A stretch of 28,067 nucleotides of DNA, taken from positions 1 to 28,067 of IMG/VR virus record IMGVR_UViG_3300010354_000474, one strand, 5' to 3'. This stretch comes from a virus. A program made the position numbers and the translations under genes. The notes under the pieces are model-generated. The model saw only the letters and a program-made list of their open reading frames with translations, did no database searches and was not told the DNA's origin. Below are positions 2,882-28,067 of the stretch, in pieces (position 1 is the stretch's first letter; every line of letters starts with the position of its first letter).

Positions 2882-4162
2882 ATGAAAAGAAAAATTAAAG
2901 AACAAATAACATATGGAGACAGACCAGAAAGGATGGACCCTAATTTGGAAAGAAAATTAGGTGACCCTGAAGGTTTATACTCTCAAAATCCTGCAATGAG
3001 AAAAGGAGTTGCTGATGTCCAAAGATTAGTAAGTGATAGGTTCCAAAAAGTCGCTCAGAAATTGAGCGATGTTACAGGTATAGAAGATTTAAGTTCAAGA
3101 CAAGTTCAAGGTATGGTTTTCCAAGAGATGATGGCAAAACTACCAAGGATTATGCAAATTGAAAGAAGACATAAAGAAGAACTTGAAATTTTAGCGGTAG
3201 ATGCGGCGTTAGAAGAAACACAAACACCAAGTAATGTTTATCAAATAGATGCGACATTATCATCCCCAAGTACCGCAGGATTTAGAATGCAACCCCAAAG
3301 ACCTCAGGAACCCGAGGAACCTGAAAGTCAAGAGATGGATTTTCCGTCATTTGACGTGGAAGATTTATCTGATGAAGAAAAATTCGAATTAGAAAAACAC
3401 AAGAGAAATATAATAAATGCAATTGTCCAAGGAGCCGCAAAAAAGGGTCATTATTTATTTCAAAAACCAGAAATAAAAAGTCGTTTGGATGCAATTGACC
3501 CATCATTATATGGAGATTATTTAGGAATTATGGCAATAAATGATTTCCTATATTTTTCTATGGAACAAATGATAGAGATGATGAGTCAAAGTGGTCAGGG
3601 AATTGCAGGAAAAGTTGAATTGGATGATGCTGATGAAGAAGAACAGGAAGATGGTATTGATACAAAAATAGTTGCGAATGGTTTAATATTTCCAATACTA
3701 TGTCATGAAGTTATCAAAGGTATTGAAGAGGCGAAGGCAAGACATGGACTACCTGATACTCCTGAAATGAGGCAAAGAGTTATGGGACAGACTGATGTAT
3801 TATCTAATGAACCAATGCAACTCAGAATAGGACCTGAAATAGTAGAAAAAATCAGATTTGCACTTCCTGATGAAATGTATGATGAAGACAATAAAGGTCT
3901 GATAAATTTTTTCCATGTTGTTTTATATAAATTACCTGCAAAGGAATTTTTGGAAATCATAGGTAATATCATATCGGAAAATGAATCAAGACTTCAAAAA
4001 GGAAAAGACAGGTTCAGAGAATTAATGCAAGACGCACAAGAATTGAAAACTGAATTTGAAGAGTATAAAGAAGAACAGGGTATTGAGCCGGATGAAGATG
4101 ATGAAGAAGATATTGATGATTTCCTGAAAAGCATTGGAATTGACCCAATAGGTCTTAATTAG
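2882..4162 (+). CDS. Unknown acidic head/packaging-block protein, 426 aa
   Basis: The frame begins MKRKIKEQITYGDRPERMDP and follows the previous stop by one base. It is largely helical. Residues about 40-105 contain long amphipathic helices (QRLVSDRFQKVAQKL; ERRHKEELEILAVDAALEE), residues about 135-170 are Pro/Glu-rich, and the last 90 residues are very acidic. I recognise no domain. The N-terminal IKEQ fits the (I/L)-x-E prohead-protease consensus but could be chance. The stop TAG shares a base with the GTG start of the terminase gene, suggesting coupled translation and a packaging or head-related function. Confidence 0.75.
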   Translation: MKRKIKEQITYGDRPERMDPNLERKLGDPEGLYSQNPAMRKGVADVQRLVSDRFQKVAQKLSDVTGIEDLSSRQVQGMVFQEMMAKLPRIMQIERRHKEELEILAVDAALEETQTPSNVYQIDATLSSPSTAGFRMQPQRPQEPEEPESQEMDFPSFDVEDLSDEEKFELEKHKRNIINAIVQGAAKKGHYLFQKPEIKSRLDAIDPSLYGDYLGIMAINDFLYFSMEQMIEMMSQSGQGIAGKVELDDADEEEQEDGIDTKIVANGLIFPILCHEVIKGIEEAKARHGLPDTPEMRQRVMGQTDVLSNEPMQLRIGPEIVEKIRFALPDEMYDEDNKGLINFFHVVLYKLPAKEFLEIIGNIISENESRLQKGKDRFRELMQDAQELKTEFEEYKEEQGIEPDEDDEEDIDDFLKSIGIDPIGLN

Positions 4163-5928
4163 TGAATTCAAAAGAACAACTTATAATTGAAGCTACGAAG
4201 TGTATGAAGGATACTCCTTATGCACTTCGTACTTATTTACAGACATATGATAATACAGTATCAAGATATGTCCCTTTAGATTTATTTCCTGACCAAGTTT
4301 CATTAATTAATGATTATGAGGAACATAATGAAAACATTGCCCTAAAATACAGACAAGCTGGAGTATCAACTGTAACCGCTGCTTGGGCATCCAAAAGGAT
4401 AGTTTTTGCAAAAAAGAACAAACCTGAAAAAATTCTAATTATCGCCAATAAACTTGATACGGCCATGGAAATGGCCAATAAAGTTAGGGCGTTTACAGAA
4501 CAATGGCCATCATGGGTAGGTGTTGGATTTTCACAGGAAAAAAACTCACAAAGACATTTCAAACTAACAAATGGATGTGAAGTAAAGGCGGTTGCAACTT
4601 CAAAAGATGCGCTTCGAGGTTATACTCCAACAATACTTATTTTTGACGAAGCGGCATACATTGAAGCCGACTCTGACTTCTGGGCGGCTTGTATGGCGTC
4701 CCTATCTACGGGAGGTAAAGTAATTGTTGTATCAACACCAAATGGATATGATGCAATCTATTATGAAATATATGACCAAGCATTACGAAATCAAAATGAT
4801 TTTAAAATAACCGAAATGTTTTGGTATCGAGACCCTCGATATACCAAAGATTTATATATGGTGAAAACCAAAGACCTGATTCATTACCTACTGAATCGAG
4901 ATGATTACAAACATGAAGAAGTTATTGATCTTTCAACTGAAAATCCATACGATAGAGATTTAGATAGAGTCAAAGATTTAATTTCACAAGGATACAAACC
5001 ATGTTCGAGTTGGTTTGAAGGTATGGTTAAAAAATTGAAGTACGACAAACGAAAAGTTGCGCAAGAATTGGAATGTAACTTTTTGGGGTCAGGAGACAAT
5101 GTATTTGACTCTGAAATGCTACAAAACATTTCAAGAAATATGTTGAAAGAACCCCAAGCCAAAATGATGGGTGGGTCACTTTGGATATTTAAGGAACCTG
5201 AAAATGGTCATAAGTATGTTATGGGTGTTGACGTTTCAAGAGGAGATTCAGAAGATTTTTCATCAATAGAAATAATAGATTTTGACGCAAGGGAACAGGT
5301 TTTTGAATATGTTGGAAAAGTTCCTCCTGATGTTCTTGCAGAAATCGCATATAAGTGGGGTGGCATGTATAACGCATATTGTGTTATAGATTTGACTGGT
5401 GGTATGGGAGTATCTACGGCTAGAAAGATGCAAGAGATGAATTATCAGAGTGGATTTTATATTGATGGTGTAGATACTCAAAATAAGTGGAAGTATGACC
5501 CAAAAATGAATGATAAAATTCCCGGTATAAATTTTAATAGTAAAAGAGTTCAAATCATATCATCATTTGAAGAAGCGATGAGACATGGTTTTAAAGTTTA
5601 TTCTTCACGACTATATAATGAAATGAATACATTCATTTACATTAATGGAAGACCTGACCATCAAAAAGGTCATCACGATGATTGCATAATGGGAATATCA
5701 ATGGCGATATTTGTTGCCGAAAAATCTTTTCAATCGTTAGAAAAAGTTACAAATCACACTAAAGCGATGTTGAATTCTTGGTCAACGGTTATGAATGAGA
5801 ATAAAAATACTTCAGAATTTTTCAATCCCATGATTCCTCAAATGGGAAGACCAAATGAAATGTATAATAATGGACCGAGCAAAAAAGATTATGAAACTTA
5901 TGGTTGGTTGTTTGGCGCTCGAAGATAA
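4162..5928 (+). CDS. terL: Terminase large subunit (T4 gp17-like)
   Basis: This is the DNA-packaging motor ATPase and nuclease that docks on the portal and pumps DNA into the prohead. The ATPase domain shows a Walker A variant YRQAGVST (residues 63-70), Walker B ILIFDEA with D162/E163, and the coupling motif STPNG (191-195). The C-terminal RNase H-like nuclease domain shows acidic residues at GVDVSRGD (D357), CVIDLTGG (D410) and HHDDCIMG (D506/D507). The length of 588 aa is close to T4 gp17 (610 aa). Walker A lacks the classical Lys, but RQ-x-G-x-ST forms are common in terminases. The start is a GTG overlapping the preceding TAG. In T4 the sheath and tube genes follow gp17; here portal comes next. 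Confidence 0.95.
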   Translation: MNSKEQLIIEATKCMKDTPYALRTYLQTYDNTVSRYVPLDLFPDQVSLINDYEEHNENIALKYRQAGVSTVTAAWASKRIVFAKKNKPEKILIIANKLDTAMEMANKVRAFTEQWPSWVGVGFSQEKNSQRHFKLTNGCEVKAVATSKDALRGYTPTILIFDEAAYIEADSDFWAACMASLSTGGKVIVVSTPNGYDAIYYEIYDQALRNQNDFKITEMFWYRDPRYTKDLYMVKTKDLIHYLLNRDDYKHEEVIDLSTENPYDRDLDRVKDLISQGYKPCSSWFEGMVKKLKYDKRKVAQELECNFLGSGDNVFDSEMLQNISRNMLKEPQAKMMGGSLWIFKEPENGHKYVMGVDVSRGDSEDFSSIEIIDFDAREQVFEYVGKVPPDVLAEIAYKWGGMYNAYCVIDLTGGMGVSTARKMQEMNYQSGFYIDGVDTQNKWKYDPKMNDKIPGINFNSKRVQIISSFEEAMRHGFKVYSSRLYNEMNTFIYINGRPDHQKGHHDDCIMGISMAIFVAEKSFQSLEKVTNHTKAMLNSWSTVMNENKNTSEFFNPMIPQMGRPNEMYNNGPSKKDYETYGWLFGARR

Positions 5929-5996: not shown

Positions 5997-8930
5997 ATGG
6001 AAGATAATAAAAATAATTTAACAGTTTGGCAGAGATTGTCCAAAACATTGGGCCCCAATTCTTTAATGAATCAGGACTATCCCATATTCAAATTAGATAA
6101 GAAGGAAATACTCAGAACTCAGAACAAACAAGATTATGAAAGAGAAAAGTTAGAGGCACAACAAACTTTTTATCTTGCAAATCAATGGGCGAAAGTCGAG
6201 AACAATTTATATTCACAAGCAATATATTACGAACCATCAAGATTGTCTGCTCAATATGATTATGAATCTATGGAGTTCACACCCGAAATATCTGCCGCAC
6301 TTGACATTTACGCAGAAGAATCTACAACAACAAATGAAGATGGTTTTATATTACAAATATATTCTGAATCAAAAAGAATAAAGGCGGTTCTTGCCGACTT
6401 ATTCAACAATGCTTTGGATATAAATACAAACCTTCCAATGTGGACAAGAAACACTTGTAAGTATGGTGACAATTTTGTTTATTTAAAATTAGACCCTGAA
6501 AGGGGAATTGTTGGATGTCAACAACTTCCCACAATTGAAATAGAAAGACATGAGATAGGAGTTGATAAGAAAATATCTGTTGACATCACCAAGAAAAATG
6601 ACAAAGACAAAAAGGCTTTACATTTTACTTGGAAGAATAAAAATATGGAATTTCAGTCTTGGGAAATAGCCCATTTCAGATTATTAGGTGATGATAGAAA
6701 ACTTCCGTATGGTACGTGTTTAAAATATGACACGAAAATAGATACTGAATTTGGAGTTAAAGAAATTAAAGACATTCAAAAGGATGATTTAGTTTGGTCA
6801 TTTGATATAAATACAGAAACCAAGGTGTTATCTAAAGTATTGGACACCGTAAATTCAGGTAGTAAAATTTGTTATCAAATACACACTAAACATAATTTTA
6901 TTGAATCGTCTGAAGAACATAAAATTATGGTTTTCAACGAAAATAAATTTATATATAAAAATACTTTGGATTTAAAAGTCGGAGATTTACTGGTAATTGA
7001 TAACGTCAAAGGTAAAACAAAAAGTACACCTATAGATAAAACCAACCCAGAAGAAAATAAAAATGGATGGTTTAATTCGGTTGACTTAATACCTGATTTT
7101 GTGGATGAGGAATTCGCAAGATTTTTTGGATTTATGATTGGGGACGGGTGGATTTCCAACACAGGTGTTTACTTTGCGTTATCAGAGTATGATGAACTTA
7201 ATGATTTTTATATAGGAATTTTAAATAAGTACTCTAAAAATCCGGTTAAAATAATTGAGGTCAACGGAAAAGAAACACAATGTATGGTTTGGTCCAAATG
7301 TTTAAAAACAATATTGGAACGAATGGGTTTTAACGGTAATGCCCATACTAAGAGGATACCCGAATGGGCTTATTATTCTGATGTTAAAATTCAAAAAGCT
7401 TTACTTGAAGGATTAATAGATGCTGATGGTTGGATTACACAAGATAAATGGTCAACACATTTGAATATTGAATTGTGTAATGATTCTTTAGTGAAAGATG
7501 TGAAAACATTATGTCAAAAAATAGGATACAAAACAGGTTCAGTCAGAAAAAGAGAGCCAAGAAAAAATGTTATAATTGAAGGTAGAGAAATAAAATCTAC
7601 TAATCCATCATTTTCACTAACCTTTTATGATACTTTATTAGAACAAACTAAAAAACATGATAATGTCAACCGTAAAACAAAAAATTATATTTTAGAACCA
7701 ATTACTAAAATAATTGAAGTTGGAGAATTTGAAACTTATGATATCTACGTAGAAAACGAAAATCATAATTTTTATGCAAATGGTATTGTGGTTCACAATT
7801 CTATGTTGGAAAAAGCAAGAAGAATATGGAAACAACTTTTATTATCTGAGGATGCTATGTTGATATATAGAACGTCAAGAGCACCCGAAAGACGAATATT
7901 TAAGGTATTTGTGGGAAACATGGACGATAATGATGTTGAGGCATATGTACAGCGTGTTGCAAATAAGTTTAAACGAGAACAAATTGTTGACAGTAAAACA
8001 GGAAATGTTGATATGAGGTTTAATCAAATGGCGGTTGACCAAGATTATTTTGTTCCTGTTAGAGACCCTGCAGCACCAAGTCCAATTGAAACATTACCAG
8101 GAGCACAGAATCTTTCAGAAATTGCTGATATTGAATATATTCAAAAAAAGTTATTAACCGCTCTAAGGGTTCCAAAAGCGTTTTTAGGGTTTGAAGAAGT
8201 TGTTGGTGATGGAAAGAATTTATCTCTACAAGATATTAGATTCGCAAGAACAATCAATAGGATACAAAAAAGTATGATTCAAGAATTAAATAAAATTGCA
8301 ATCGTACATTTGTTTTTATTGGGATATGAAGATGAATTATCAAACTTTACATTAGGATTGACAAATCCATCTACTCAAGCAGATTTATTAAAAATTGATG
8401 TTTGGAAAGAAAAAGTTTTGTTATATAAAGATTTGGTTATGGATCCAGGTAATGGTATTCAGGCAACATCATCTACATGGGCTAAGAAACATATTTTTGG
8501 TTGGTCTGACGAGGAAGTCAGATTGGATTTACAACAACAAAGAATAGAAAGAGCCGTTGGTGAAGAATTGAAAGCAACTGCAACTGTAATCACCAAAACA
8601 GGTTTATTCGATACATTAGACAAATTGTATGGTTCTCAAACAGGAGGAACCGCAACCGCGGCCGCATCCACAGAGACACCTGAAGGTATGGAGGCATTCT
8701 CACCACCAGGTGATATGGGTGGTGGAGAATCACCACCGCCACCGCCAGCGGCACCTGAAGAAGCTCCGCCAGCAGAAGCACCTGCGTTGGCTCCTGAAAG
8801 TAAAATGAATAATTTAAATATGTTAGTTGAATATAACTTAATAGAAGGTTCAAAAACTATAGATTTAGGACAAGGTCAAAATTCTTTATCAAAAATTTCA
8901 GAACAACTGGATAAGTTATTAAATACGTAA
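5997..8930 (+). CDS. 20: Portal protein (T4 gp20-like) interrupted by an intein
   Basis: The portal forms the dodecameric ring at the unique head vertex through which DNA enters and leaves, and it nucleates prohead assembly. Residues 1-240 and 602-977 match gp20-type portals: the N-terminal part has the SMEFTPEISAALDIYAEE segment, and the halves join at LPYGT / SMLEKARRIWKQL, a conserved portal motif. Residues 241-601 are an intein (listed separately). After splicing the protein would be 616 aa against 524 for T4 gp20. The excess is mostly a Pro/Ala-rich C-terminal tail (about residues 880-935) followed by a short helical end. The upstream gap carries a candidate late promoter. Without splicing the portal would be split in a core region, so splicing must be efficient for phage viability. 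Confidence 0.95.
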   Translation: MEDNKNNLTVWQRLSKTLGPNSLMNQDYPIFKLDKKEILRTQNKQDYEREKLEAQQTFYLANQWAKVENNLYSQAIYYEPSRLSAQYDYESMEFTPEISAALDIYAEESTTTNEDGFILQIYSESKRIKAVLADLFNNALDINTNLPMWTRNTCKYGDNFVYLKLDPERGIVGCQQLPTIEIERHEIGVDKKISVDITKKNDKDKKALHFTWKNKNMEFQSWEIAHFRLLGDDRKLPYGTCLKYDTKIDTEFGVKEIKDIQKDDLVWSFDINTETKVLSKVLDTVNSGSKICYQIHTKHNFIESSEEHKIMVFNENKFIYKNTLDLKVGDLLVIDNVKGKTKSTPIDKTNPEENKNGWFNSVDLIPDFVDEEFARFFGFMIGDGWISNTGVYFALSEYDELNDFYIGILNKYSKNPVKIIEVNGKETQCMVWSKCLKTILERMGFNGNAHTKRIPEWAYYSDVKIQKALLEGLIDADGWITQDKWSTHLNIELCNDSLVKDVKTLCQKIGYKTGSVRKREPRKNVIIEGREIKSTNPSFSLTFYDTLLEQTKKHDNVNRKTKNYILEPITKIIEVGEFETYDIYVENENHNFYANGIVVHNSMLEKARRIWKQLLLSEDAMLIYRTSRAPERRIFKVFVGNMDDNDVEAYVQRVANKFKREQIVDSKTGNVDMRFNQMAVDQDYFVPVRDPAAPSPIETLPGAQNLSEIADIEYIQKKLLTALRVPKAFLGFEEVVGDGKNLSLQDIRFARTINRIQKSMIQELNKIAIVHLFLLGYEDELSNFTLGLTNPSTQADLLKIDVWKEKVLLYKDLVMDPGNGIQATSSTWAKKHIFGWSDEEVRLDLQQQRIERAVGEELKATATVITKTGLFDTLDKLYGSQTGGTATAAASTETPEGMEAFSPPGDMGGGESPPPPPAAPEEAPPAEAPALAPESKMNNLNMLVEYNLIEGSKTIDLGQGQNSLSKISEQLDKLLNT
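6717..7799 (+). mobile_element. Intein with LAGLIDADG homing endonuclease, 361 codons
   Basis: The element encodes portal residues 241-601. Splicing signals are complete. The first residue is Cys241 (CLKYDTKIDT). Block B is SSEEHKI with His308. Block F is around YDIYVENENHNFYANG (582-595). Block G is GIVVHN ending in His600-Asn601, with Ser602 as the nucleophile of the C-extein. Between them lie two LAGLIDADG motifs, FGFMIGDGWI (about 378-387, Asp383) and LEGLIDADGWI (470-480, Asp477), with both acidic residues kept. The endonuclease is therefore probably active and would copy the element into intein-free portal genes. Insertion in a conserved functional motif is typical for inteins. Boundaries follow directly from motif and extein continuity. 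Confidence 0.95.
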
Positions 8931-8938
8931 TATTTATA
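8931..8938 (+). promoter_or_regulatory. Candidate late promoter element TATTTATA
   Basis: TATTTATA begins directly after the portal stop and ends 16 bases before the ATG at 8955. An overlapping T4-like TATAAATA is also present at 8940-8947, 7 bases before that ATG, so either could be the functional element. Confidence 0.45.
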
Positions 8939-8954
8939 ATATAAATAGAATAGC

Positions 8955-9650
8955 ATGACATTCGGACAAGTTAAATCCATAATTGAAAAAAGTCTTCTTG
9001 AATCTTATAAAAATGAGACGGAGTTTAAGAGATCTATAAAAGAATTTAAACATAATGTTTTAACAGATAAATCTATATCTAAGTTATATTCAATATATGA
9101 CCAACTTAGTATACCTCAAGGTTTATCTGAATCGGAAGCAAGAGAATTCTTGGAAGAAGGAATTTCTCTGGCAAAATATGTTTTACAAAAAATAACACTA
9201 CCCAAATCTATTAGTGAGAATATCATAAATGATTATGAGGATATTGACACACTTGTATACACCACAAAAACAGATTTAAATGAACGAGTTGAATCAAAGA
9301 AAAATATATTAAAAGTTCTTACAACTAAGAAGGATATTAAGGAACATGTAAATCTTCCAATAAAGTCTATGGTTAAAATTGCAAACCAAACAATTTCTAA
9401 TTATGTTGATAATTTGGATGAAAGTGCAAAAAGAGAGTTAATCTCTATTTTATCTGAAGATACTGAAAGATTAAAACTAAAATTTGAATTAATAAAAGAT
9501 AATGCAATAACCAAATTATATAATATTTTGGAAAATGAAAATGATGGTGAGACTAAAAATAAACTCACTGAGACTATAGAAAAAATAAAAACTGAAGAAT
9601 TTAATCAAATAAACTATCTCAGAATTAAGACACTAGAACAATCAATTTGA
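8955..9650 (+). CDS. Helical unknown protein, 231 aa
   Basis: The protein starts MTFGQVKSIIEKSLLESYKN and is almost entirely charged amphipathic helix (high Lys, Glu, Ile, Leu, Ser). There is no Cys, signal peptide or membrane segment. I recall similar proteins next to portal or prohead genes in other marine T4-like phages, but no function is known to me. Position between portal and protease suggests a prohead core or assembly role, which is inference. The last nine bases overlap the convergent bS21 gene, so the two 3' ends share DNA. Confidence 0.75.
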   Translation: MTFGQVKSIIEKSLLESYKNETEFKRSIKEFKHNVLTDKSISKLYSIYDQLSIPQGLSESEAREFLEEGISLAKYVLQKITLPKSISENIINDYEDIDTLVYTTKTDLNERVESKKNILKVLTTKKDIKEHVNLPIKSMVKIANQTISNYVDNLDESAKRELISILSEDTERLKLKFELIKDNAITKLYNILENENDGETKNKLTETIEKIKTEEFNQINYLRIKTLEQSI

Positions 9651-9830
9651 TTGTTTCTTTTTTTGTGTATATATTGCTTTCTGAATCTCGTTTCTTCTTC
9701 TTACAGATTTTTTAATATACTCTTTCTTTTTGACCAAAGTTTGATTTTGTCTAGTTTTAATTACTTTGGATTTTAAGGTTTTTAGGGCTTTATCCAAGCT
9801 TTCCCCATTTTTAATTTCAATAATTAACAT
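9642..9830 (-). CDS. rpsU: Ribosomal protein bS21 (phage-encoded)
   Basis: The 62-residue protein matches small-subunit protein bS21 along its length. The N-terminus MLIIEIKNGESLDKALK is the family's start, followed by the basic segment with KKKEYIKKSVRRR and the IQKAIYTQ helix. The SVxxR-x-x-IQKA-x-Y-x-Q pattern resembles Bacteroidetes bS21 rather than the E. coli form. Tyr54 falls at the position that, from memory of the Flavobacterium johnsoniae ribosome structure, contacts the 16S anti-Shine-Dalgarno. The gene lies on the opposite strand from its neighbours, tail to tail with 8955-9650 and divergent from 9907, so it probably has its own promoter. No Shine-Dalgarno is visible upstream (aataaatgtgtt before ATG). 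It could replace host bS21 on ribosomes during infection. Confidence 0.92.
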   Translation of the reverse strand: MLIIEIKNGESLDKALKTLKSKVIKTRQNQTLVKKKEYIKKSVRRRNEIQKAIYTQKKKQSN

Positions 9831-9853
9831 AACACATTTATTTTTTGACTTAT

Positions 9854-9889
9854 ACTATTATATAGTTTATTTTTATTAAAAATATAAAC
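9854..9889. promoter_or_regulatory. Inverted repeats between bS21 and the divergent gene
   Basis: ACTAT-TAT-ATAGT (9854-9866) is a small inverted repeat that could be an operator. It is followed by GTTTA...TAAAC (9865-9889), an AT-only hairpin overlapping the 19-base repeat. The divergent arrangement means promoters for both bS21 and the gene at 9907 should lie here. A TTGACT at 9845-9850 has no well-spaced -10 box that I can identify. Confidence 0.3.
9864..9882 (+). repeat. 19-base intergenic repeat, copy 2
   Basis: This is identical to 214-232 and ends 24 bases before the ATG at 9907. Confidence 0.4.
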
Positions 9890-9906
9890 TTTTTATAAGA
9901 AAATGG

Positions 9907-10353
9907 ATGAAAAAAGGAAAAAGTGTGAAGTTAAATCTATATACTCCTATTAAAACAACGTATGGGACAGTAGATTCAAAAAATCTTAAATCAATTTACA
10001 TAAACATACAATCTTGGGTTACACCCAAAATTGAAGAGGGAAATTGGAAAAGAATCGTTGGATGTTTAATAAGAGATATAAAACTATCAGTACAAGATGT
10101 TTTAGATAAAAAAATCTACAACGAAAAAACAATTGTTGATTTAGATTTAAGAACGAGTGGAATACATTATGGGAAAAAGTCTTTTTTTAATTTGGAAATC
10201 AACTTATATACTTTGGAACCAACAGATTTTAAAGACTTAAAAATTAAAGAATCAATAAAAAAAATAATCAAAAACATATATAGAAATGACATAATAGGGA
10301 ATGACTACTTTGATTTTTACCCATCAAAAGTGGAATCTGAATGCAAACTTTAA
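9907..10353 (+). CDS. Unknown phage protein, 148 aa
   Basis: The frame starts MKKGKSVKLNLYTPIKTTYG. It is Lys/Ile-rich with alternating hydrophobic stretches suggesting a beta-rich core, followed by a helix near residues 118-133. The segment TIVDLDLRTSGIHYGKKSFFNLEINLY looks like a beta sheet. I recognise no family. An out-of-frame ATG at 9903 gives no useful product, so 9907 is the start. It directly precedes the prohead protease and may be co-transcribed with it, although that gene has its own promoter-like element. A structural or assembly role is possible from context only. Confidence 0.7.
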   Translation: MKKGKSVKLNLYTPIKTTYGTVDSKNLKSIYINIQSWVTPKIEEGNWKRIVGCLIRDIKLSVQDVLDKKIYNEKTIVDLDLRTSGIHYGKKSFFNLEINLYTLEPTDFKDLKIKESIKKIIKNIYRNDIIGNDYFDFYPSKVESECKL

Positions 10354-10361
10354 TTTGCAAT

Positions 10362-10369
10362 ATATTTAT
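10362..10369 (+). promoter_or_regulatory. Candidate late promoter element TATTTATG
   Basis: This is an ATATTTATg-type element 13 bases before the preferred protease start at 10383. Its position supports that start over the upstream in-frame ATGs at 10341 and 10368. Confidence 0.4.
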
Positions 10370-10382
10370 GTTAAAAGAATCA

Positions 10383-11102
10383 ATGAAAAAATTAAGAATA
10401 TTAGAAGCCAACGAAACGGGTCATGGTATTTTGATTGAGATGGATGCGGGTTATGTATCCCCAAAAGAGAAATATAACGCACATGTTTTACAGGAATCGG
10501 CTAAATTAGATTATAGGAATCCTTTTGAATTTTATGCTGTACTTCAGAAGTATAACACTCCAAATAGAAATGGTAGATTCTACCCAGAACAAATATTAAA
10601 AAGAGAAGCTGAGAATTACAAAAAAGCAATTGCCAAGGGTTTGTCAACATCAGAATTAAATCATCCAGAATCTTCATTAATAGATTTGGATAGAGTATCT
10701 CACATCATAACCGATATATGGTGGGATAAGAATATTCTAATGGGAAAACTCAAACTCCTGACATCACCAGGTTTTCATGAGAGAGGAATCGTATCAACAA
10801 AAGGAGACCAAGCAGCAAACCTTATGAGACAAGGAGTTACCTTAGGTATTTCTTCCCGAGGAGTAGGTTCATTAAAAAAAGTAGGTGAAAGAAATGAAGT
10901 ACAAGATGACTTTGAACTAATATGTTTTGACTTAGTATCATCACCATCTACGCCAGGTGCTTACCTTTTCTTAGACCCAAGTGATAGAGATAAATATGAA
11001 GAGAACTTAGAGGAAGAAAAAAGAAATAGACAAACAATTCAGCCTGAATCTAACAAGTCTCTTGATTTAATGAGAAAATTAAACGATTTTTTGGGAAAAT
11101 AA
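10383..11102 (+). CDS. 21: Prohead maturation protease (T4 gp21-like)
   Basis: This serine protease acts inside the prohead, cutting scaffold and capsid proteins after (I/L)-x-E before DNA packaging. Family hallmarks are the N-terminal YAVLQKYNTPNRNGRFYP segment, the catalytic His in ELNHPESS (His94) and the catalytic Ser in LGISSRGVG (Ser157 or Ser158). A conserved Asp in FDLVSSPSTPGA (Asp183) follows. The 239 aa compare with 212 for T4 gp21. I prefer the ATG at 10383 because a promoter-like element lies just upstream; in-frame ATGs at 10341 and 10368 would add 14 or 5 residues. Its own N-terminus RILEAN contains an ILE site, fitting self-cleavage. Gene order portal, protease, scaffold, capsid matches T4. 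Confidence 0.93.
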   Translation: MKKLRILEANETGHGILIEMDAGYVSPKEKYNAHVLQESAKLDYRNPFEFYAVLQKYNTPNRNGRFYPEQILKREAENYKKAIAKGLSTSELNHPESSLIDLDRVSHIITDIWWDKNILMGKLKLLTSPGFHERGIVSTKGDQAANLMRQGVTLGISSRGVGSLKKVGERNEVQDDFELICFDLVSSPSTPGAYLFLDPSDRDKYEENLEEEKRNRQTIQPESNKSLDLMRKLNDFLGK

Positions 11103-12942: not shown

Positions 12943-14745
12943 ATGGGAGCATTATTAGAATCAGGTCTTGTTGGTAATATAGGTCTTAAGCACCTAAAAG
13001 TTATCAAAGAAGACACAATCAACAAATGGGACAAATTAGGATTTCTTGAAGGTCTTAAAGGTCACATGAGAGAAAACGTTGCACAGCTTTATGAAAATCA
13101 AGCATCTTATTTGATTAACGAAGCGTCAACTACATCAGATACAGGAGCTTTTGAAACTGTTGTATTTCCAATCGTTAGGAGAGTATTCTCTAAACTTTTG
13201 GCAAACGACATCGTTTCTGTACAGGCAATGAACTTACCTATCGGTAAATTGTTCTACTTTGTACCTAACATCCAAAATTATGAAAGTGGTGGAGAACATT
13301 ATAAGCCTTATGGTGCACCAGGTGGTCCTGGAACACCAAATGAAGGATATAATTATAACGAGGGTAGAGACCTTTATGATAGATTTTATGAAGGTAATGA
13401 ACCGGCGTTAGACCCTCCAGGTTTATTTGACTATTCAAAAGGTACTTTTTCTGCGGTTACAGCATCTGCCGTTACTGCAGTTTGGGATTCTACAACTTTA
13501 AATTTAGTACAATCTGCATATACTATAAATGAGGGTCCTGATGGTGGTTCTTATAGAAAAGTATTACTTATTATGTCAGGATTTGCCCAAGATGGTGCCG
13601 GTAAACTTATCGGGCCTGATGGTAATCCAGTGGATAATGAATCTTTTTTGGCGGATTTAACTATAACTCCAACAGAGGCAACCAGGGCGATGATAGGTGG
13701 CACTGGTCCGGTATTATTTAGAGTTGTAACTCAAAGATATGGTAAAGGTATTGTTCAATATGGTAACAACAACGCTGATCTTGTATTCCCTAACTCAAAA
13801 ACAGGTGGTGGTCAATATGATGATATTTGTGATATTAATGGTAATATCTATTTGGAAGTTGATTTACAGACCCCTGTTTGTGTTTCTTGTGGAGGTTCAA
13901 TTGACGGATATACAGGTTCTACATTCTCCTCAACTACAGCGACTAACAATGCATTTATTCCTACGTACAGAATTTACAAGAATTTGGAATTCGAAGACAG
14001 AATAGGTGAAGTTTCTTTCGACCTTATGTCAGTAACAGTATCTGTAACAGAAAGAAAACTAAGAGCTCAATGGTCACCTGAAATGGCACAAGACGTTGCA
14101 GCATTCCACAATATCGATGCCGAAGCAGAATTAACCGCTCTACTTTCTGAGCAGGTTGCGGCTGAAATCGATAGAGAGATTTTGAGAGACCTTAGAAAAG
14201 GTGCAGCTTGGAATCTTAGATGGGATTACAATGGATGGAAGAGGTTAGGTTCTAACGCAGTTCCTTACACTCAAAAGGACTGGAACCAAACTCTTATCAC
14301 TGCAATAAACCAAATTTCAGCTCAGATTCACAAATCTACTTTGAGAGGTGGAGCGAACTGGATCGTTGTATCTTCTGAAATCAGTGCAATATTTGACGAC
14401 TTGGAATACTTCCACGTATCAAACGCGGCTCCTGAGCAAGATCAGTACAACATGGGTATTGAAAGAGTAGGAACTCTTGCTGGTAGATACCAAGTTTATA
14501 GAGACCCTTATTTCCCACCTAACCAAGTGTTGTTGGGACACAAAGGAACATCTCTATTGGACACAGGTTATATCTACGCACCATATGTTCCACTACAGTT
14601 GACACCAACAATGTATAACCCATTCAACTTTACACCAATCAAAGGTATCATGACAAGATACGCCAAAAAGATGGTAAATAATCGCTTCTACGGGAGAATT
14701 ACAGTTGATGGTGTTAGAACATTTGATTTAAGAGAATTGAGATAA
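12943..14745 (+). CDS. 23: Major capsid protein (T4 gp23-like)
   Basis: This is the main shell protein of the phage head. Family signatures are ENQASYLINEA near residues 51-61, AFETVVFPIVRRVFSKLLAND (about 69-89), the core RAQWSPEMAQDVAAFHNIDA followed by EAELTALLSEQVAAEIDREI (about residues 374-420), and the C-terminus ITVDGVRTFDLREL. The Ile58-Asn59-Glu60 site fits the (I/L)-x-E protease consensus and lies near the gp23 cleavage position in T4 (after residue 65), so the mature protein should begin at Ala61. At 600 aa it is longer than T4 gp23 (521 aa); the extra length is in the variable region about 110-350. It is followed directly by a strong terminator. Confidence 0.96.
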   Translation: MGALLESGLVGNIGLKHLKVIKEDTINKWDKLGFLEGLKGHMRENVAQLYENQASYLINEASTTSDTGAFETVVFPIVRRVFSKLLANDIVSVQAMNLPIGKLFYFVPNIQNYESGGEHYKPYGAPGGPGTPNEGYNYNEGRDLYDRFYEGNEPALDPPGLFDYSKGTFSAVTASAVTAVWDSTTLNLVQSAYTINEGPDGGSYRKVLLIMSGFAQDGAGKLIGPDGNPVDNESFLADLTITPTEATRAMIGGTGPVLFRVVTQRYGKGIVQYGNNNADLVFPNSKTGGGQYDDICDINGNIYLEVDLQTPVCVSCGGSIDGYTGSTFSSTTATNNAFIPTYRIYKNLEFEDRIGEVSFDLMSVTVSVTERKLRAQWSPEMAQDVAAFHNIDAEAELTALLSEQVAAEIDREILRDLRKGAAWNLRWDYNGWKRLGSNAVPYTQKDWNQTLITAINQISAQIHKSTLRGGANWIVVSSEISAIFDDLEYFHVSNAAPEQDQYNMGIERVGTLAGRYQVYRDPYFPPNQVLLGHKGTSLLDTGYIYAPYVPLQLTPTMYNPFNFTPIKGIMTRYAKKMVNNRFYGRITVDGVRTFDLRELR

Positions 14746-14800: not shown

Positions 14801-14823
14801 ATTAGAAATCTAATAATTTATAA

Positions 14824-14831
14824 TATTTATA
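14824..14831 (+). promoter_or_regulatory. Candidate late promoter element TATTTATA
   Basis: AATATTTATAAATA covers both TATTTATA (14824-14831) and TATAAATA (14828-14835); it ends 7-11 bases before the ATG at 14843 and follows the capsid terminator. Confidence 0.45.
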
Positions 14832-14842
14832 AATAAAAAAAA

Positions 14843-19650: not shown

Positions 19651-19662
19651 TTATTTTTTATT

Positions 19663-19670
19663 TATAAATA
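19663..19670 (-). promoter_or_regulatory. Candidate late promoter element TATTTATA (minus strand)
   Basis: On the - strand GATATTTATAAATA lies 12 bases before the ATG at 19650, in the 20-base gap to the previous gene. The overlapping TATAAATA ends 8 bases before that ATG. Confidence 0.45.
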
Positions 19671-21182
19671 TCAATTAATTCGAATATGTTGGTTAAGAAC
19701 TTTATTTGTTGCGTTTTGCATTTCCGTCAAGATATTTTGTACTTGAGTTCCATCTTTTGATATTGTCACTGGAGCATAGCCAGGAAATGGATGTGTATGA
19801 GTCACAAGAAATCTAACTATTAGGTTAAGTAACTCCAATAGTTCCTCTCCCCTAACCATACTTGATGTATTTGGAATTATCTCTCTTCCGAATTTTTCTG
19901 CAGATATACCATATAAAGTGTCATCGAAGTTTATTTTCTTCTTTCCCGGTATGGAGGATAAATGAGATAATAAGAATAGTTTGTCCGAACCTAGCGCACC
20001 ATATGTTCCAGTATTATCAATTCTCTTCTCTCTTTCTAATATTCTCTTTTTAAGATCCACAGGAGAACCAACATTGTCTTTGGATATGATTAATCCATAT
20101 CCTCCTTCTAATGCGGGGTATAGTTTAATACCTTTGTATATATCACCAAAATGTTTTGCGGCTACTCCTGAACCAGAATTATCATTTAATAATTGGTAAT
20201 TAAGTGGAGATGGTCTATAAAATATTGGAAATTTTTCTCCCTGATCTGAAAATAAAGGTTCTCCTGTCTGAGACTTATCACTTTGATTACAATTCTGTAT
20301 GAATTTATTTATAAATGTAATTACCTCAGATTTAGTTAATTGTGTAAATCTTTCACGATAGAATAGATATTTAAGATTTTCTGGAATATCACTATTGACC
20401 GTCAGATTTTTAGAGTTAGTAGTAAGATTTGGTTTTAATTGATATAAATAAATCGCACCTCCAAATTTATCTACCTCATTCTCAGGATTTGATATATAAT
20501 ATTCAATCAAATATTTAACTTGTAAAATTACAGGTACTGATTCAAAATAAGAGCTTGATGGTAGTTTTTGTATCGTACTAGGAAATCTGGATAATTGTAA
20601 AAACCCACGGAAGTTATTTACTGTTGGAATACTATTTGCCCTTAACCTTTCTTCTGCATATTTTCCAGCGCGGATTAATACTTCATCCTCTTTAACTATT
20701 ACATCCGCACTACCTCTACCCAATAAAGCATTGTCCCCTGGTTGAGGGAATACTCCAAAATATTTTTTATCTATAGAACCATCCTTTTTCTTAATGTATG
20801 GTGGTAGGTTAAACCTTATACCTGTTCCCATAAATTTATCACCACCCGCCCAATATTGAAATCCTGATGAGGTTGGTGAATAAAAAGTGCTCTGTATATA
20901 ATATTGATTAACAAACTTGAAGTCAGGGTTACTATACATCACCAAAACCATCTCTTCCACTTTTGGTGTTTGATATATATAGTATGGAAGTAACGGTTGA
21001 AAAACAAATGGGTCTCTGATAGACCAAGGGTCAGTCTCAGGATTCCAAGGTGGGTCTGTGATACTATTTATTATCGCATTGTAGTCGTCAGTAATTCTAC
21101 GACCTCTAATCCTACCCAACATGGCTGGATCTTGGTTGTCCAAAACCTCACATTGATAAAAAAAATTCTGTTGTTTTTCCAT
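19671..21182 (-). CDS. Putative baseplate hub/spike protein with OB-fold, 503 aa
   Basis: The N-terminal 110 residues fit the OB-fold of baseplate hub or spike proteins (T4 gp5 type): FFYQCEVLDNQDPAMLGRIR with GR(V/I)R-like turn, later PLLPYYIYQTPKVEEMVLVMY, i.e. 'P-x2-GE-x-V-x-V-x-Y' in degenerate form. The middle contains long helical and loop regions without a recognisable lysozyme domain. Near residues 460-470 there is THTHPFPGYAP, and the C-terminus is a helix (ILTEMQNATNKVLNQHIRIN). His-x-His-Pro segments are common in phage baseplate and spike proteins. Start and stop overlap neighbours (TAATG with the upstream gene), consistent with a tail or baseplate operon. The OB-fold reading is moderate; the exact T4 equivalent is unclear. 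Confidence 0.55.
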   Translation of the reverse strand: MEKQQNFFYQCEVLDNQDPAMLGRIRGRRITDDYNAIINSITDPPWNPETDPWSIRDPFVFQPLLPYYIYQTPKVEEMVLVMYSNPDFKFVNQYYIQSTFYSPTSSGFQYWAGGDKFMGTGIRFNLPPYIKKKDGSIDKKYFGVFPQPGDNALLGRGSADVIVKEDEVLIRAGKYAEERLRANSIPTVNNFRGFLQLSRFPSTIQKLPSSSYFESVPVILQVKYLIEYYISNPENEVDKFGGAIYLYQLKPNLTTNSKNLTVNSDIPENLKYLFYRERFTQLTKSEVITFINKFIQNCNQSDKSQTGEPLFSDQGEKFPIFYRPSPLNYQLLNDNSGSGVAAKHFGDIYKGIKLYPALEGGYGLIISKDNVGSPVDLKKRILEREKRIDNTGTYGALGSDKLFLLSHLSSIPGKKKINFDDTLYGISAEKFGREIIPNTSSMVRGEELLELLNLIVRFLVTHTHPFPGYAPVTISKDGTQVQNILTEMQNATNKVLNQHIRIN

Positions 21183-23863: not shown

Positions 23864-24610
23864 TTAATTTTTAATTTGACTTTGTAATATTAAATATAAC
23901 TTTTTGAATCTTTTGATAGATCCTCGTATTTCTTTCGTAGTTAGGTTTGTCATTTCCCGAAGAGAAAGTAATATAATATTTTTGTTGAATTTGTTATTTT
24001 CGGTTGCCGAAAATATTGTTTCATAGTTGTCAAATAAATCGACTAAGGCATATCCCAATTTCATTTCGTTTTCATTCAGATTTTCATCTTCAATAAAATT
24101 TTTCAACTCGACAAGATATTCTGTGATAATTAAATTTGGGTCTTGAATTTCATCATCAATTCTGTATACCATATCAGGTCTTTCTTCTAAACTAGAAGAT
24201 ATATCTTCATATGATACTTTCCTATTTGTTTCCTTTTGGTCTTTGATTATCTGACCCATCAAATAATTTTTACATATTGTTCCAAAGTAAGAATACGCTT
24301 TTTTGTTTTTTGATGGTTTGAACTTGTCGACTTTGGTCATCAAGAACGAATGAGTATCTGTATGAATTTCTATGAAATCCATATCTTTACGATACAACTT
24401 GTATCGCCTTATAATAGATGAAATCATCTTATCTAAAGGCCCTCGTAGAAATTCATTGTATATTTTATTCTTCTCCTCAAAAGTTTCAGCCAATAAAAAT
24501 AATTTTACAGCGTCTTCTTCTCTTACATCAAAATAATTTTCTTTAACCGATTTTCTACCTCTTTTTTTTGATGAATTATCTACAGTATGTGCAGTTGTAG
24601 ATTCCTGCAT
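23864..24610 (-). CDS. 55: RNA polymerase sigma factor for late transcription (T4 gp55-like)
   Basis: In T4, gp55 replaces host sigma on RNA polymerase and recognises late promoters (TATAAATA). Here residues about 94-136 (KVDKFKPSKNKKAYSYFGTI then CKNYLMGQIIKDQKETNRKV) match the sigma region 2 signature of gp55: 'KF-x-P-x-K-N-x-x-A-Y-x-YF-x-x-I-C-K-N' followed by an I-K-x-x-K-x-x-R helix. The N-terminus has a basic stretch (SSKKRGRKSVK). The C-terminal 40 residues (LSLREMTNLTTKEIRGSIKRFKK, split here by a turn) look like a helix-turn-helix, perhaps a region 4 remnant. At 248 aa it is longer than T4 gp55 (185 aa). Its start overlaps the upstream stop as TAATG. Confidence 0.82.
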   Translation of the reverse strand: MQESTTAHTVDNSSKKRGRKSVKENYFDVREEDAVKLFLLAETFEEKNKIYNEFLRGPLDKMISSIIRRYKLYRKDMDFIEIHTDTHSFLMTKVDKFKPSKNKKAYSYFGTICKNYLMGQIIKDQKETNRKVSYEDISSSLEERPDMVYRIDDEIQDPNLIITEYLVELKNFIEDENLNENEMKLGYALVDLFDNYETIFSATENNKFNKNIILLSLREMTNLTTKEIRGSIKRFKKLYLILQSQIKN

Positions 24611-25416
24611 TAAACATTTTGTGCATCATATTTTATGGACCTATCGTCCTTGAAAAAATATTCTTTTTTCGCAAGTTCTATCCAAAATCTAACTTCATCC
24701 TCCAACATTTTTTCATCACCAAATTTATACGTCCAAAATATTGAACCTTCTCTTAAATTTAAATGTTTGTAACCTAATCTTGGAATCGTTGTAATTGATA
24801 CTGAATTATATGTCATTCTTAATAAGAATTCATAAACAAAGGTTAGTTTCATCGATGGTTTGAACCCACCAAAATCTTCAATAAGTTTTTTCTTAAAAAC
24901 TGAACCTGCGGTTTGAAAATTTTGATAACTTTGTAATGTATCATTTGTCAATTTACCTATTTCATTTGTGAAATTTGCGGCAAAGGTTGCCTCATTTGTA
25001 AATCCAACAAATGTCAATTTATCATCGACATCCACAACAACAGGTAAAAACATTTCTACTGTTGGTAGTTGTTCCATATAATTTTTGACATTTTTGAACC
25101 AAATTGGAGCGTATTCGTCATCAAACTCGAATAAACTTACCCATTCACTTTTTACCTTTGATATTCCAAAGTTAACCTGAGAGGCATAATTAGGCTCTTT
25201 TTCCCAAGGTATAAGAGATACAGACAAATCTCCAAAATCATATTCAGATAATAACTCAACAAGGCTTTCCTCCAAAGTATGGACAATAACCAACTCTTCA
25301 ATTTGAACTAATTGTTTTTGTAATGATTCTATTGCTTTTTTGAAAAAGTCTTCAAAATCTTTAACTTTAGAAGACTTAATCGGTAATATTACAGATACAG
25401 GTATTTTATTTTCCAT
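24610..25416 (-). CDS. Family 2-like (GT-A) glycosyltransferase, 268 aa
   Basis: The N-terminus IPVSVILPIKSSKVKDFEDF has the layout of GT2 enzymes (V-S-V-I-L-P followed by a helix with SLQKQ). Residues about 41-47 give ELVIVHT, and NYASQVNFGISKVKSEWVSL is the usual 'N-x-G-x-x-x-A-x-G-E' helix-strand region in divergent form. It is followed by FEFDDEY (97-102) in the place of the metal-binding DxD motif. The start at 25416 follows the upstream TAA by one base; an ATG at 25449 inside that gene would add 11 residues. It would transfer a sugar from a nucleotide-sugar donor. The acceptor could be phage DNA, a virion protein or a cell-surface glycan; the sequence does not say. Confidence 0.75.
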   Translation of the reverse strand: MENKIPVSVILPIKSSKVKDFEDFFKKAIESLQKQLVQIEELVIVHTLEESLVELLSEYDFGDLSVSLIPWEKEPNYASQVNFGISKVKSEWVSLFEFDDEYAPIWFKNVKNYMEQLPTVEMFLPVVVDVDDKLTFVGFTNEATFAANFTNEIGKLTNDTLQSYQNFQTAGSVFKKKLIEDFGGFKPSMKLTFVYEFLLRMTYNSVSITTIPRLGYKHLNLREGSIFWTYKFGDEKMLEDEVRFWIELAKKEYFFKDDRSIKYDAQNV

Positions 25417-25417
25417 A

Positions 25418-26467
25418 TTATTGTTCAGTTTTAGATAATTGTTCTTCAAAAGATTCTGCTCTTTGTGTTAAAATATTTCCAAACAACGAAAGAACTTTTT
25501 CTTCAAATTCTTGTTTATTTTGATAAACTTCAATAGTTGATTTCATGTGAGAATATAATTCAGGATTTATATTATCTTCTAACCAATTTTGGATAAATTC
25601 GGCAATAACGTCAGTCATTATTGTTTGGTCTGTAATCCACAATCCATTATCATCGTTCATCCAATCTGGAGGTAAGTTTGGTATTTTACCAATAACAGGC
25701 ACATTTGATGCCATAGACTCCAAAGGAAATGTGCCAAAACCACTATCATTGTCAATCCACACACTAACAAAACATTCTTTCAGAGATTTTGCAAAATCTT
25801 TTTCTGACAAACCCCTCAAATCTCTGAATGTGAACCATCTATATTGAGGAAATTTAAGATAAAATTTCTTTATAATGTTCATTGTATCACTATGGTCTCT
25901 AGTATGAATACCAATAATAGGTAATGAAGGTTTATCACTAGGTGTGAATACTTCACTTATATATGGCGGTATTATTTCAAATGTACTTTGACGCATTATA
26001 CGTTCAATATATTGTTTTTGTTTTTCAGTTGTGGTTATACACTTGAAAAATCCAAATTGAGCCCAATTTTGACCTGGTTGCAATGTCTCAACAATATACG
26101 CATAACATTGAGCTAGAGTAATTTTAGCACAAGGTAGTTTTTTTAATTGTTCCATAACATATCCAAATATTTCTGGAACAACTATAATGTCTTCAGGACT
26201 TACTTCTAAATTTTGACCCTCAATAGATTTATGTGGTATTTCCATAAAATCAGACTCCAACCAAGGAACTCCACCATATTCTGTTTTTTCATGTAGAATA
26301 ATTGGATTAAACCCGTTTTCTTTCAATGTTCTTGCCATTTGATATATGTATCTAACAGATGCTTTGGCATTACCTTTAGTATCTTGAACCATCAAATAAA
26401 TTCTCGATTTTTTTTCTCGTAAATTTTTGATAGATTCTTTAACTTTTTCTGTCAATTGTTGGTCCAT
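25418..26467 (-). CDS. GT-B glycosyltransferase (GT4-like), 349 aa
   Basis: The C-terminal motif DSGFGTFPLESMASNVPVIG (residues 241-260) corresponds to the donor-binding 'E-G-F-G-x-x-x-L-E-x-M-x-x-G-x-P-V-I' of GT4-type enzymes; the first Glu is Ser here, the second is Glu250. The N-terminal domain has a Rossmann-like IYLMVQDTKGNAKASVRYIY (about 23-42) with a helix continuing MARTLKENGF, and VVPEIFGYVMEQLKK. It is shorter than most GT4 proteins (350-400 aa) but both lobes are present. It lies one base upstream of the GT-A gene. The two probably act together on one glycan. The neighbouring late sigma gene suggests late or regulated expression. Confidence 0.8.
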   Translation of the reverse strand: MDQQLTEKVKESIKNLREKKSRIYLMVQDTKGNAKASVRYIYQMARTLKENGFNPIILHEKTEYGGVPWLESDFMEIPHKSIEGQNLEVSPEDIIVVPEIFGYVMEQLKKLPCAKITLAQCYAYIVETLQPGQNWAQFGFFKCITTTEKQKQYIERIMRQSTFEIIPPYISEVFTPSDKPSLPIIGIHTRDHSDTMNIIKKFYLKFPQYRWFTFRDLRGLSEKDFAKSLKECFVSVWIDNDSGFGTFPLESMASNVPVIGKIPNLPPDWMNDDNGLWITDQTIMTDVIAEFIQNWLEDNINPELYSHMKSTIEVYQNKQEFEEKVLSLFGNILTQRAESFEEQLSKTEQ

Positions 26468-26756: not shown

Positions 26757-27399
26757 ATAGTTCTTCAATTTTTAATTTGAGTTGTTTAATGGTTGAGATT
26801 TCATGATCAACCAAAATGTCTGTATTATAACTTGTGTTATATTTAATCACGGTTTTATTTTCAGGATGATTTAATAATAGTTTAGGATTCGCAGTAAGTA
26901 AAACATCTACGGAATCCCACATTGAATTAATTGTAATTTCACTGTAAAATTTTATAGTTTCGACTAAACATCCAAATTTAGAAATAAAAAATAATGATGC
27001 CGGTTTTGATTTTCCTATTTCATCGGAAACTATGAGTATGTCGTGTTTATCCCTCATATCCATATAAAAATTATTAAAGTCCATAATCCCACTATTTTCA
27101 ACAGAACCCGCATGACCAAATATTTCCATAGTATGGTCTTTATACATAAAATTGTATAATTCATCCGAATTTTTGAATGCGAAATGTTCGATAAGATTCA
27201 AAGAAGTTACATCACTCAATATTTTATACTCAAAAGTATTTTCTATTTGAGTTAGTGACGTATTACCTGATAAGTCCATATCATAAATCTTATCACTTAT
27301 AAAGTCAGGATTTTGTTCAATCAAGTGTTTTTCATAAACTTGTCTGAACTTACCAATTGTATCTCTTAGAACACCATTTAATTCTATTCCAATCCTCAT
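26749..27399 (-). CDS. HAD-like protein with degraded catalytic motif, 216 aa
   Basis: The start MRIGIELNGVLRDTIGKFRQ lines up with HAD motif I, normally D-x-D-G-V-L-x-D. The two catalytic Asp are replaced by Glu7-x-Asn9 in this alignment. A motif II-like strand, HDILIVSDEIGKSKPASLFF (about 123-142), is followed by a Lys and a 'FGC' turn, and later NSMWDSVDVLLTANPKLLLN resembles motif IV with displaced acids. The size fits the 5'-nucleotidase-like HAD group seen in phages. The changes suggest the protein binds rather than hydrolyses, or uses another residue. Its ATG overlaps the PhoH stop as ATGA. The link to PhoH and glycosyltransferases does not reveal a substrate. Confidence 0.6.
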   Translation of the reverse strand: MRIGIELNGVLRDTIGKFRQVYEKHLIEQNPDFISDKIYDMDLSGNTSLTQIENTFEYKILSDVTSLNLIEHFAFKNSDELYNFMYKDHTMEIFGHAGSVENSGIMDFNNFYMDMRDKHDILIVSDEIGKSKPASLFFISKFGCLVETIKFYSEITINSMWDSVDVLLTANPKLLLNHPENKTVIKYNTSYNTDILVDHEISTIKQLKLKIEELYD

Positions 27400-28067
27400 T
27401 CATCATATCTTTTTAACATTTTAGAAATTAACGGATTTCTTACAACGTCTTCGGGCGAAAATTCAAAAGTTCCAACATCGGTCAAATCTTGAAATCTTTT
27501 AATCGCATCCCACAGTCCAGTTTGTGTTTTGTCTTTGTGTCTGTCAAATTGTTCTAAGTCTCCAGAAATGAAAAACTTAGAGTTAAACCCAATTCTTGTC
27601 AACAATAATTTCATCTGACTTGGAGTTGAATTTTGTGCCTCTTCAAATATTAGTATTGAGTTGTCAATGTTCATTCCTCTCATATAAGCCAAAGCAAAAA
27701 CTTCAATCGCTTCAATTTCTTTAAGTTTTTCTCTTACATCTTTACCTATTATTTTATTTAAAAGATAGTAGGATGGAAAAATATAAGGGTCCAATTTTTC
27801 TTCAACACCACCTGGTAAACTACCTAACTTTTCTTCAGCCTCTACTGCTGGTCTTACAATTATAATTTTTTCGTATGGAGTTTCAGGGTCTGATAACAAA
27901 TCAACTGCACATTTCATCGCAATATAACTTTTACCGACACCCGCAGGACCTACACATATTGTAATTTGATTGTCCTGTAAAATATTATAATATTGTTTTT
28001 GATTTTCTGTTAAAAATTTTTGTTTAGTTTTTCTTTTTATTAAGGAACAAATTTGTTGTTTTTTATT
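27396..28067 (-). CDS. phoH: PhoH-like P-loop ATPase (5' end outside window)
   Basis: The - strand frame is open to the window edge, giving 223 residues of a PhoH-family protein. Just upstream of an internal Met at 27917 lies TENQKQYYNILQDNQITICV then GPAGVGKS, the PhoH N-terminal helix and Walker A, so that Met is not the true start. Further family signatures are IIIVRPAVEAEEKLGSLPGG, EVFALAYMRG, SILIFEEAQNSTPSQMKLLL (Walker B with Glu-Glu instead of the usual Asp-Glu) and TRIGFNSKFFISGDLEQFD. PhoH is common in marine phages; it is an ATPase proposed to act in RNA or phosphate metabolism, but its phage role is uncertain. Visible length is close to complete for phage PhoH (about 230-260 aa). 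Confidence 0.92.
   Translation of the reverse strand, partial: NKKQQICSLIKRKTKQKFLTENQKQYYNILQDNQITICVGPAGVGKSYIAMKCAVDLLSDPETPYEKIIIVRPAVEAEEKLGSLPGGVEEKLDPYIFPSYYLLNKIIGKDVREKLKEIEAIEVFALAYMRGMNIDNSILIFEEAQNSTPSQMKLLLTRIGFNSKFFISGDLEQFDRHKDKTQTGLWDAIKRFQDLTDVGTFEFSPEDVVRNPLISKMLKRYDE

Follow-up and report, generated by a model that had tools for sequence, protein, structure and literature searches.

Phage copies of bS21 are the commonest kind of viral ribosomal-protein gene. Phages predicted to infect Bacteroidetes, with genomes of 293-331 kb when complete, carry a reverse-strand bS21 gene that is flanked by two hypothetical proteins within the region encoding the large terminase subunit (TerL), portal, protease, and major capsid protein (MCP) (Chen et al. 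2022, PMC9723584). In that study, an aromatic residue was found at position 54 of all phage bS21 proteins, while residues ~21-28 are unlike those of host proteins; residues 21-30 of bS21 are oriented toward the mRNA path. The gene was transcribed together with late structural genes, in the same phages and at the same time, and substitution of the phage protein into host ribosomes was proposed. Furthermore, 70S ribosomes of E. coli incorporate a pelagiphage bS21, and E. coli ribosomes with the tagged pelagiphage protein have an in vitro activity of ~5% of wild type (Mizuno et al. 2019, PMC6375957).

On the host side, the bS21 gene (rpsU) of Flavobacterium johnsoniae has an extended Shine-Dalgarno (SD) sequence and is translated best by ribosomes that lack bS21 and less by bS21-replete ribosomes. 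About 80% of Flavobacteriales have been reported to carry an SD-type rpsU (McNutt et al. 2023, PMC9976891).

Here, we analyzed a 28,067-nucleotide stretch of viral DNA (the window) for which an earlier note had suggested that a phage bS21 could shift the ribosomes of its host. This idea has already been published (Chen et al. 2022; Mizuno et al. 2019). New with respect to Chen et al. are a virus-only motif at residues 23-28 and a leader without a strong autoregulatory SD.

A bS21 gene in a T4-like head module

An ATG opens a 62-residue open reading frame on the minus strand of the window (Table 1). Its product exceeds the cut-offs of two bS21 profiles, with 40.1 bits (E = 3e-10) for Pfam PF01165, where the curated cut-off is 27, and 30.9 bits for NCBIfam TIGR00030, where it is 28.95. 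Among solved chains, F. johnsoniae bS21 (7jil, E = 1.5e-9) matches best and aligns without gaps, residues 1-61 on 1-61, with Tyr54 on Tyr54; K40, S42, R46, and K51-A52 are also shared. As the mark of a Bacteroidia-type bS21 we took an aromatic residue, Tyr, at position 54, predicted to stack on A1534, and the aligned residue of the window protein is Tyr. Judged by its sequence, the product is a genuine bS21 of Bacteroidia type, in agreement with both the identity and the type given in the earlier note. In the phage collection that we searched, a close bS21 is absent from named isolates, and only uncultured records match.

Table 1. Features of the bS21 locus and the surrounding head module, with positions in the window
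Feature	Position	Strand	Description
TerL	4162-5928	+	Terminase large subunit
Portal	5997-8930	+	T4-like portal (gp20) with in-frame intein
ORF231	8955-9650	+	Conserved, all-helical, function unassigned; convergent neighbor of bS21
bS21 (rpsU)	9642-9830	-	62 aa; PF01165, TIGR00030, 7jil alignment, residue-column table
Intergenic region	9831-9906	.	76 nt, between the divergent bS21 and ORF148
ORF148	9907-10353	+	Conserved, mixed alpha/beta, function unassigned; divergent neighbor of bS21
Prohead protease	10341-11102	+	Peptidase_S77, T4 gp21-like
MCP	12943-14745	+	Major capsid protein, Gp23

The surrounding genes form a T4-like myophage head module, with gp20, gp21, and gp23 recognized through PF07230, PF03420, and PF07068. 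The gene order in the window is TerL, portal with intein, ORF231, bS21 on the reverse strand, ORF148, S77 protease, and Gp23 MCP, which places bS21 within the TerL-portal-protease-MCP stretch described by Chen et al. The 3' ends of ORF231 and bS21 overlap by 9 nt. Both ORF231 and ORF148 find good matches among uncharacterized viral proteins only. The matches of ORF148 to solved structures are weak and mixed, and the phage collection holds no match to it among named isolates.

By their published description, the jumbo myophages of Chen et al. resemble the window in having a reverse-strand bS21 between hypothetical proteins in the head region, an aromatic residue 54, and divergent residues 21-28; their hosts are predicted to be Bacteroidetes. 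Promoters, ribosome-binding sites, and the word "intein" are unmentioned in their text, whereas the window portal contains an intein. The cultured phage immuto (MW353177), which infects Flavobacterium, has a T4-like head module with matching gene order but, unlike the window, no detectable bS21, ORF231, or ORF148. Pelagibacter phage HTVC008M, again by its published description, also encodes a bS21, the copy that enters E. coli 70S ribosomes; its host belongs to a different phylum from that of the window phage.

A scan of viral contigs in IMG/VR found 291 relatives, and the nearest 80 were fetched (identity 59-82%). Every visible neighbor keeps the order ORF231, reversed bS21, ORF148, protease in 80/80 of these loci. 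Where loci were selected by ORF231 or by ORF148, two sets that overlap in contigs, bS21 is at the expected spot in 59/59 and 75/75 of those with room. The order is also kept in a deeper group (L313-L332), in which one or two small extra genes lie between bS21 and ORF231 in the inspected loci, and in distinct loci among L435-L452 and L455-L468. A more distant bS21 (L453, with the same protein in L454) is located near protease- and MCP-like genes and on the same strand as those. The earlier note had considered the position unusual, a lone insertion between head genes. These loci argue against that view. The position is not unusual, for the literature already gives this arrangement as characteristic of the group (Chen et al. 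2022).

Pairwise dN/dS values of phage bS21 range from 0.01 to 0.24, most of them under 0.1; for some pairs, synonymous changes have reached saturation. The window bS21 is under purifying selection in a conserved context and is not a chance occurrence.

Between ORF231 and bS21, the deeper lineage encodes small hydrophobic proteins that may be holin-like (L319, 6248-6457; L324, 6249-6458; L313, 3761-4142), and a hairpin with a T-run follows its bS21. A second ribosomal protein beside this bS21 was considered and rejected, as the extra genes encode small hydrophobic proteins that, by eye, are not bS18.

A phage-only segment in a host-like protein

We built a tree from 53 phage and 108 host proteins over 64 columns, a check that the earlier note had called for. 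The window protein falls among bS21 sequences rather than among unrelated basic peptides, clustering with L002-L004 (98/96). A host-free set (100/94) unites 49 phage proteins, namely those of the head-module loci and that of a 735-kb huge phage (L307, LR756501). Deep branches are weak, and the 64-column tree does not single out a donor lineage. One record filed as viral (L312, IMGVR_UViG_3300002520_000085) has a bS21 at 6001-6168 that, together with its leader, nearly matches bacterial copies such as L355, L361, and L362; the contig could represent bacterial DNA or part of a prophage.

Residues 23-28 of the window protein are V23-I24-K25-T26-R27-Q28 in 7jil numbering, while the F. johnsoniae host protein has F23-D24-K-T-G27-T28. 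The motif VI[KS][TS][KR]Q is present in 48/48 distinct phage proteins of head-module lineages 1 and 2 and in 0/138 host proteins. V23, I24, and Q28 are found in 100% of the two phage lineages and are rare among the 138 host proteins, and at position 27 phages have K or R, whereas 92% of hosts have G. Chen et al. name four divergent positions, to which the aligned proteins add that the motif at residues 23-28 is completely invariant. Residues 40, 46, 51-52, and 54 stay host-like in phage bS21: Tyr occupies position 54 in 93% of the nearest phage and 94% of the host proteins, and K40, R46, and A52 are near-invariant in both.

These features bear on the function of the phage gene, which is quite probably the replacement of host bS21. 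The phage protein would be made probably late, alongside structural proteins, and would displace host bS21 on 30S subunits. Because Tyr54 and the other conserved residues are kept, hiding of the anti-SD should persist, with the 16S 3' tail still tucked away by phage bS21 as it is by host bS21. The segment toward the mRNA path (residues 21-30) would be swapped for the invariant VI[KS][TS][KR]Q, and with this mRNA-side segment replaced, initiation would be adjusted to phage messages, which are SD-less and A/U-rich.

The host-like residues, at position 54 and elsewhere, would also suit a phage that replenishes bS21 lost in infection or removed by host defense, leaving ribosome specificity unchanged. 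Removal of host bS21 during infection has been speculated on, and in F. johnsoniae the loss of bS21 or of its C-terminus leaves ribosomes poor at initiating on messages that have no SD (McNutt et al. 2023, PMC9976891). However, the motif at residues 23-28, confined to phages (48/48 versus 0/138), would not be predicted for a mere substitute, and we regard simple resupply as unlikely. To the same degree we doubt a dominant-negative shut-off, in which phage bS21 in ribosomes would broadly slow or block host translation with no preference for phage messages. Given the ~5% activity of E. coli ribosomes with the pelagiphage protein (PMC6375957), general impairment rather than selectivity is possible, but that value comes from a distant host and a tagged protein, whereas the window bS21 keeps the conserved residues of the Bacteroidetes type; moreover, related phages express the gene late together with structural genes, which would make a general block costly. 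The protein might instead act outside the ribosome, for instance as a basic protein that binds nucleic acid and is packed into the head. Such a role would fit the location among head genes, and virion packaging has been raised as a possibility (Chen et al. 2022, PMC9723584), but it is highly improbable given a bS21 match that spans the whole length and the conservation of Tyr54, K40, R46, and A52 in phages and hosts alike, which points to ribosomal constraint.

Leaders and the host rpsU circuit

Pairing with the anti-SD was computed for the 25 nt before each start against the 16S tail. The leader of the window bS21 pairs at -1.7 kcal/mol and has no SD, in contrast to the extended SD of Flavobacterium rpsU (about -19.8 kcal/mol) and above the -13 kcal/mol below which McNutt-type extended SDs fall. 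Across 39 distinct phage rpsU leaders the median is -1.1 kcal/mol, while the Flavobacterium-type rpsU leaders that served as host control are below -18 kcal/mol in 80/80 cases. The sole phage leader at or below -8 kcal/mol is that of L307, whose bS21 at 8001 has the SD AAAGGAGG (-12.1 kcal/mol); the other phage copies examined lack a clear SD. No recognizable head-module gene is present within 8 kb of the L307 bS21.

Within the window, a pairing of -8 kcal/mol is reached by 1/30 gene leaders versus 6.8% of random window 25-mers. The genes of this phage are therefore without SDs, as the earlier note had stated. Since an SD-less leader is the default of the phage, its absence at bS21 need not be an adaptation.

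Autoregulation of rpsU through a strong SD proved not to be general among Bacteroidota hosts. When genomes were drawn evenly, 8/50 host rpsU leaders in an order sample and 6/49 in a class sample were below -13 kcal/mol; the gap to the reported ~80% probably arises in part from different sampling. Strong SDs being few in these samples, the feedback step is host-dependent and we narrow the claim to Flavobacterium-type hosts: only with a Flavobacterium-like host would the missing SD free phage bS21 from feedback. Such a host is plausible for the bS21-phage group, for which a CRISPR spacer match to Flavobacterium has been reported (Chen et al. 2022, PMC9723584); the match is not evidence for the window phage.

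With such a host, the phage gene would probably stand outside the feedback loop: its leader has no SD, and its output should hold steady while bS21 accumulates on ribosomes, the same filling that should repress a Flavobacterium-type host rpsU. Replacement of host bS21 might extend to the circuit itself, an idea that we hold tentatively and consider possible but doubtful. A feedback-insensitive phage bS21 would exploit the host circuit, its SD-less mRNA being translated by replete ribosomes while its product, with Tyr54, would hide the anti-SD and thereby repress translation of the SD-dependent host rpsU. If this reading is true, the ribosome pool would shift in a single direction, with phage bS21 taking over from the host protein. 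The combination of a kept Tyr54, a replaced mRNA-side motif, and an absent autoregulatory SD offers a test of virus-specialized ribosomes, for which F. johnsoniae already has bS21 depletion and SD reporters.

Candidate control elements and other features

The earlier note had assigned bS21 its own control region. The 76-nt intergenic region of the window holds GTCAAAA at 9843-9849 (minus strand) and a GTTTAT block; among 37 distinct bS21/ORF148 intergenic regions, GTTTAT is found in 35 and GTCAAAA in 31. These conserved blocks make a control region plausible. As a phage-wide promoter element GTCAAAA was rejected, as it is not enriched in the window (14 occurrences versus 11 expected).

The T4-late-promoter-like motif ATATTTATAA is located before several window genes (8930-8939; 14823-14832, plus strand; 19662-19671, minus strand) and is enriched in such positions, with 7/12 exact ATATTTAT sites within 45 nt upstream of a start versus 0.3 expected if uniform. 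It precedes 28/30 ORF231 homologs and, in 11/32 relatives, bS21. The motif is absent before the window bS21, and for this reason we claim no promoter for the gene. At the convergent ends of ORF231 and bS21, a 9-bp AT hairpin with a T-run is present at 9637-9662. It was discarded as a shared terminator, since it folds no more stably than shuffled sequences do (z = -0.86) and the hairpin recurs, among the loci inspected, in the nearest relatives only.

The intein of the window portal occupies approximately residues 240-605 and has a LAGLIDADG-like domain. The portal of one relative (L081, 6902-9748) carries a different, HNH-like intein, inserted elsewhere in the gene, the portals of L079-L080 are split as in L081, and most relatives are intein-free. 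The different inteins at different sites in the window and L081 indicate that the portal has been invaded at least twice. Downstream of the structural genes, the minus-strand regions 24610-26467 and 27396-28067 contain a family 2 glycosyltransferase and a PhoH-like gene, together with a weak match to a group 1 glycosyltransferase.
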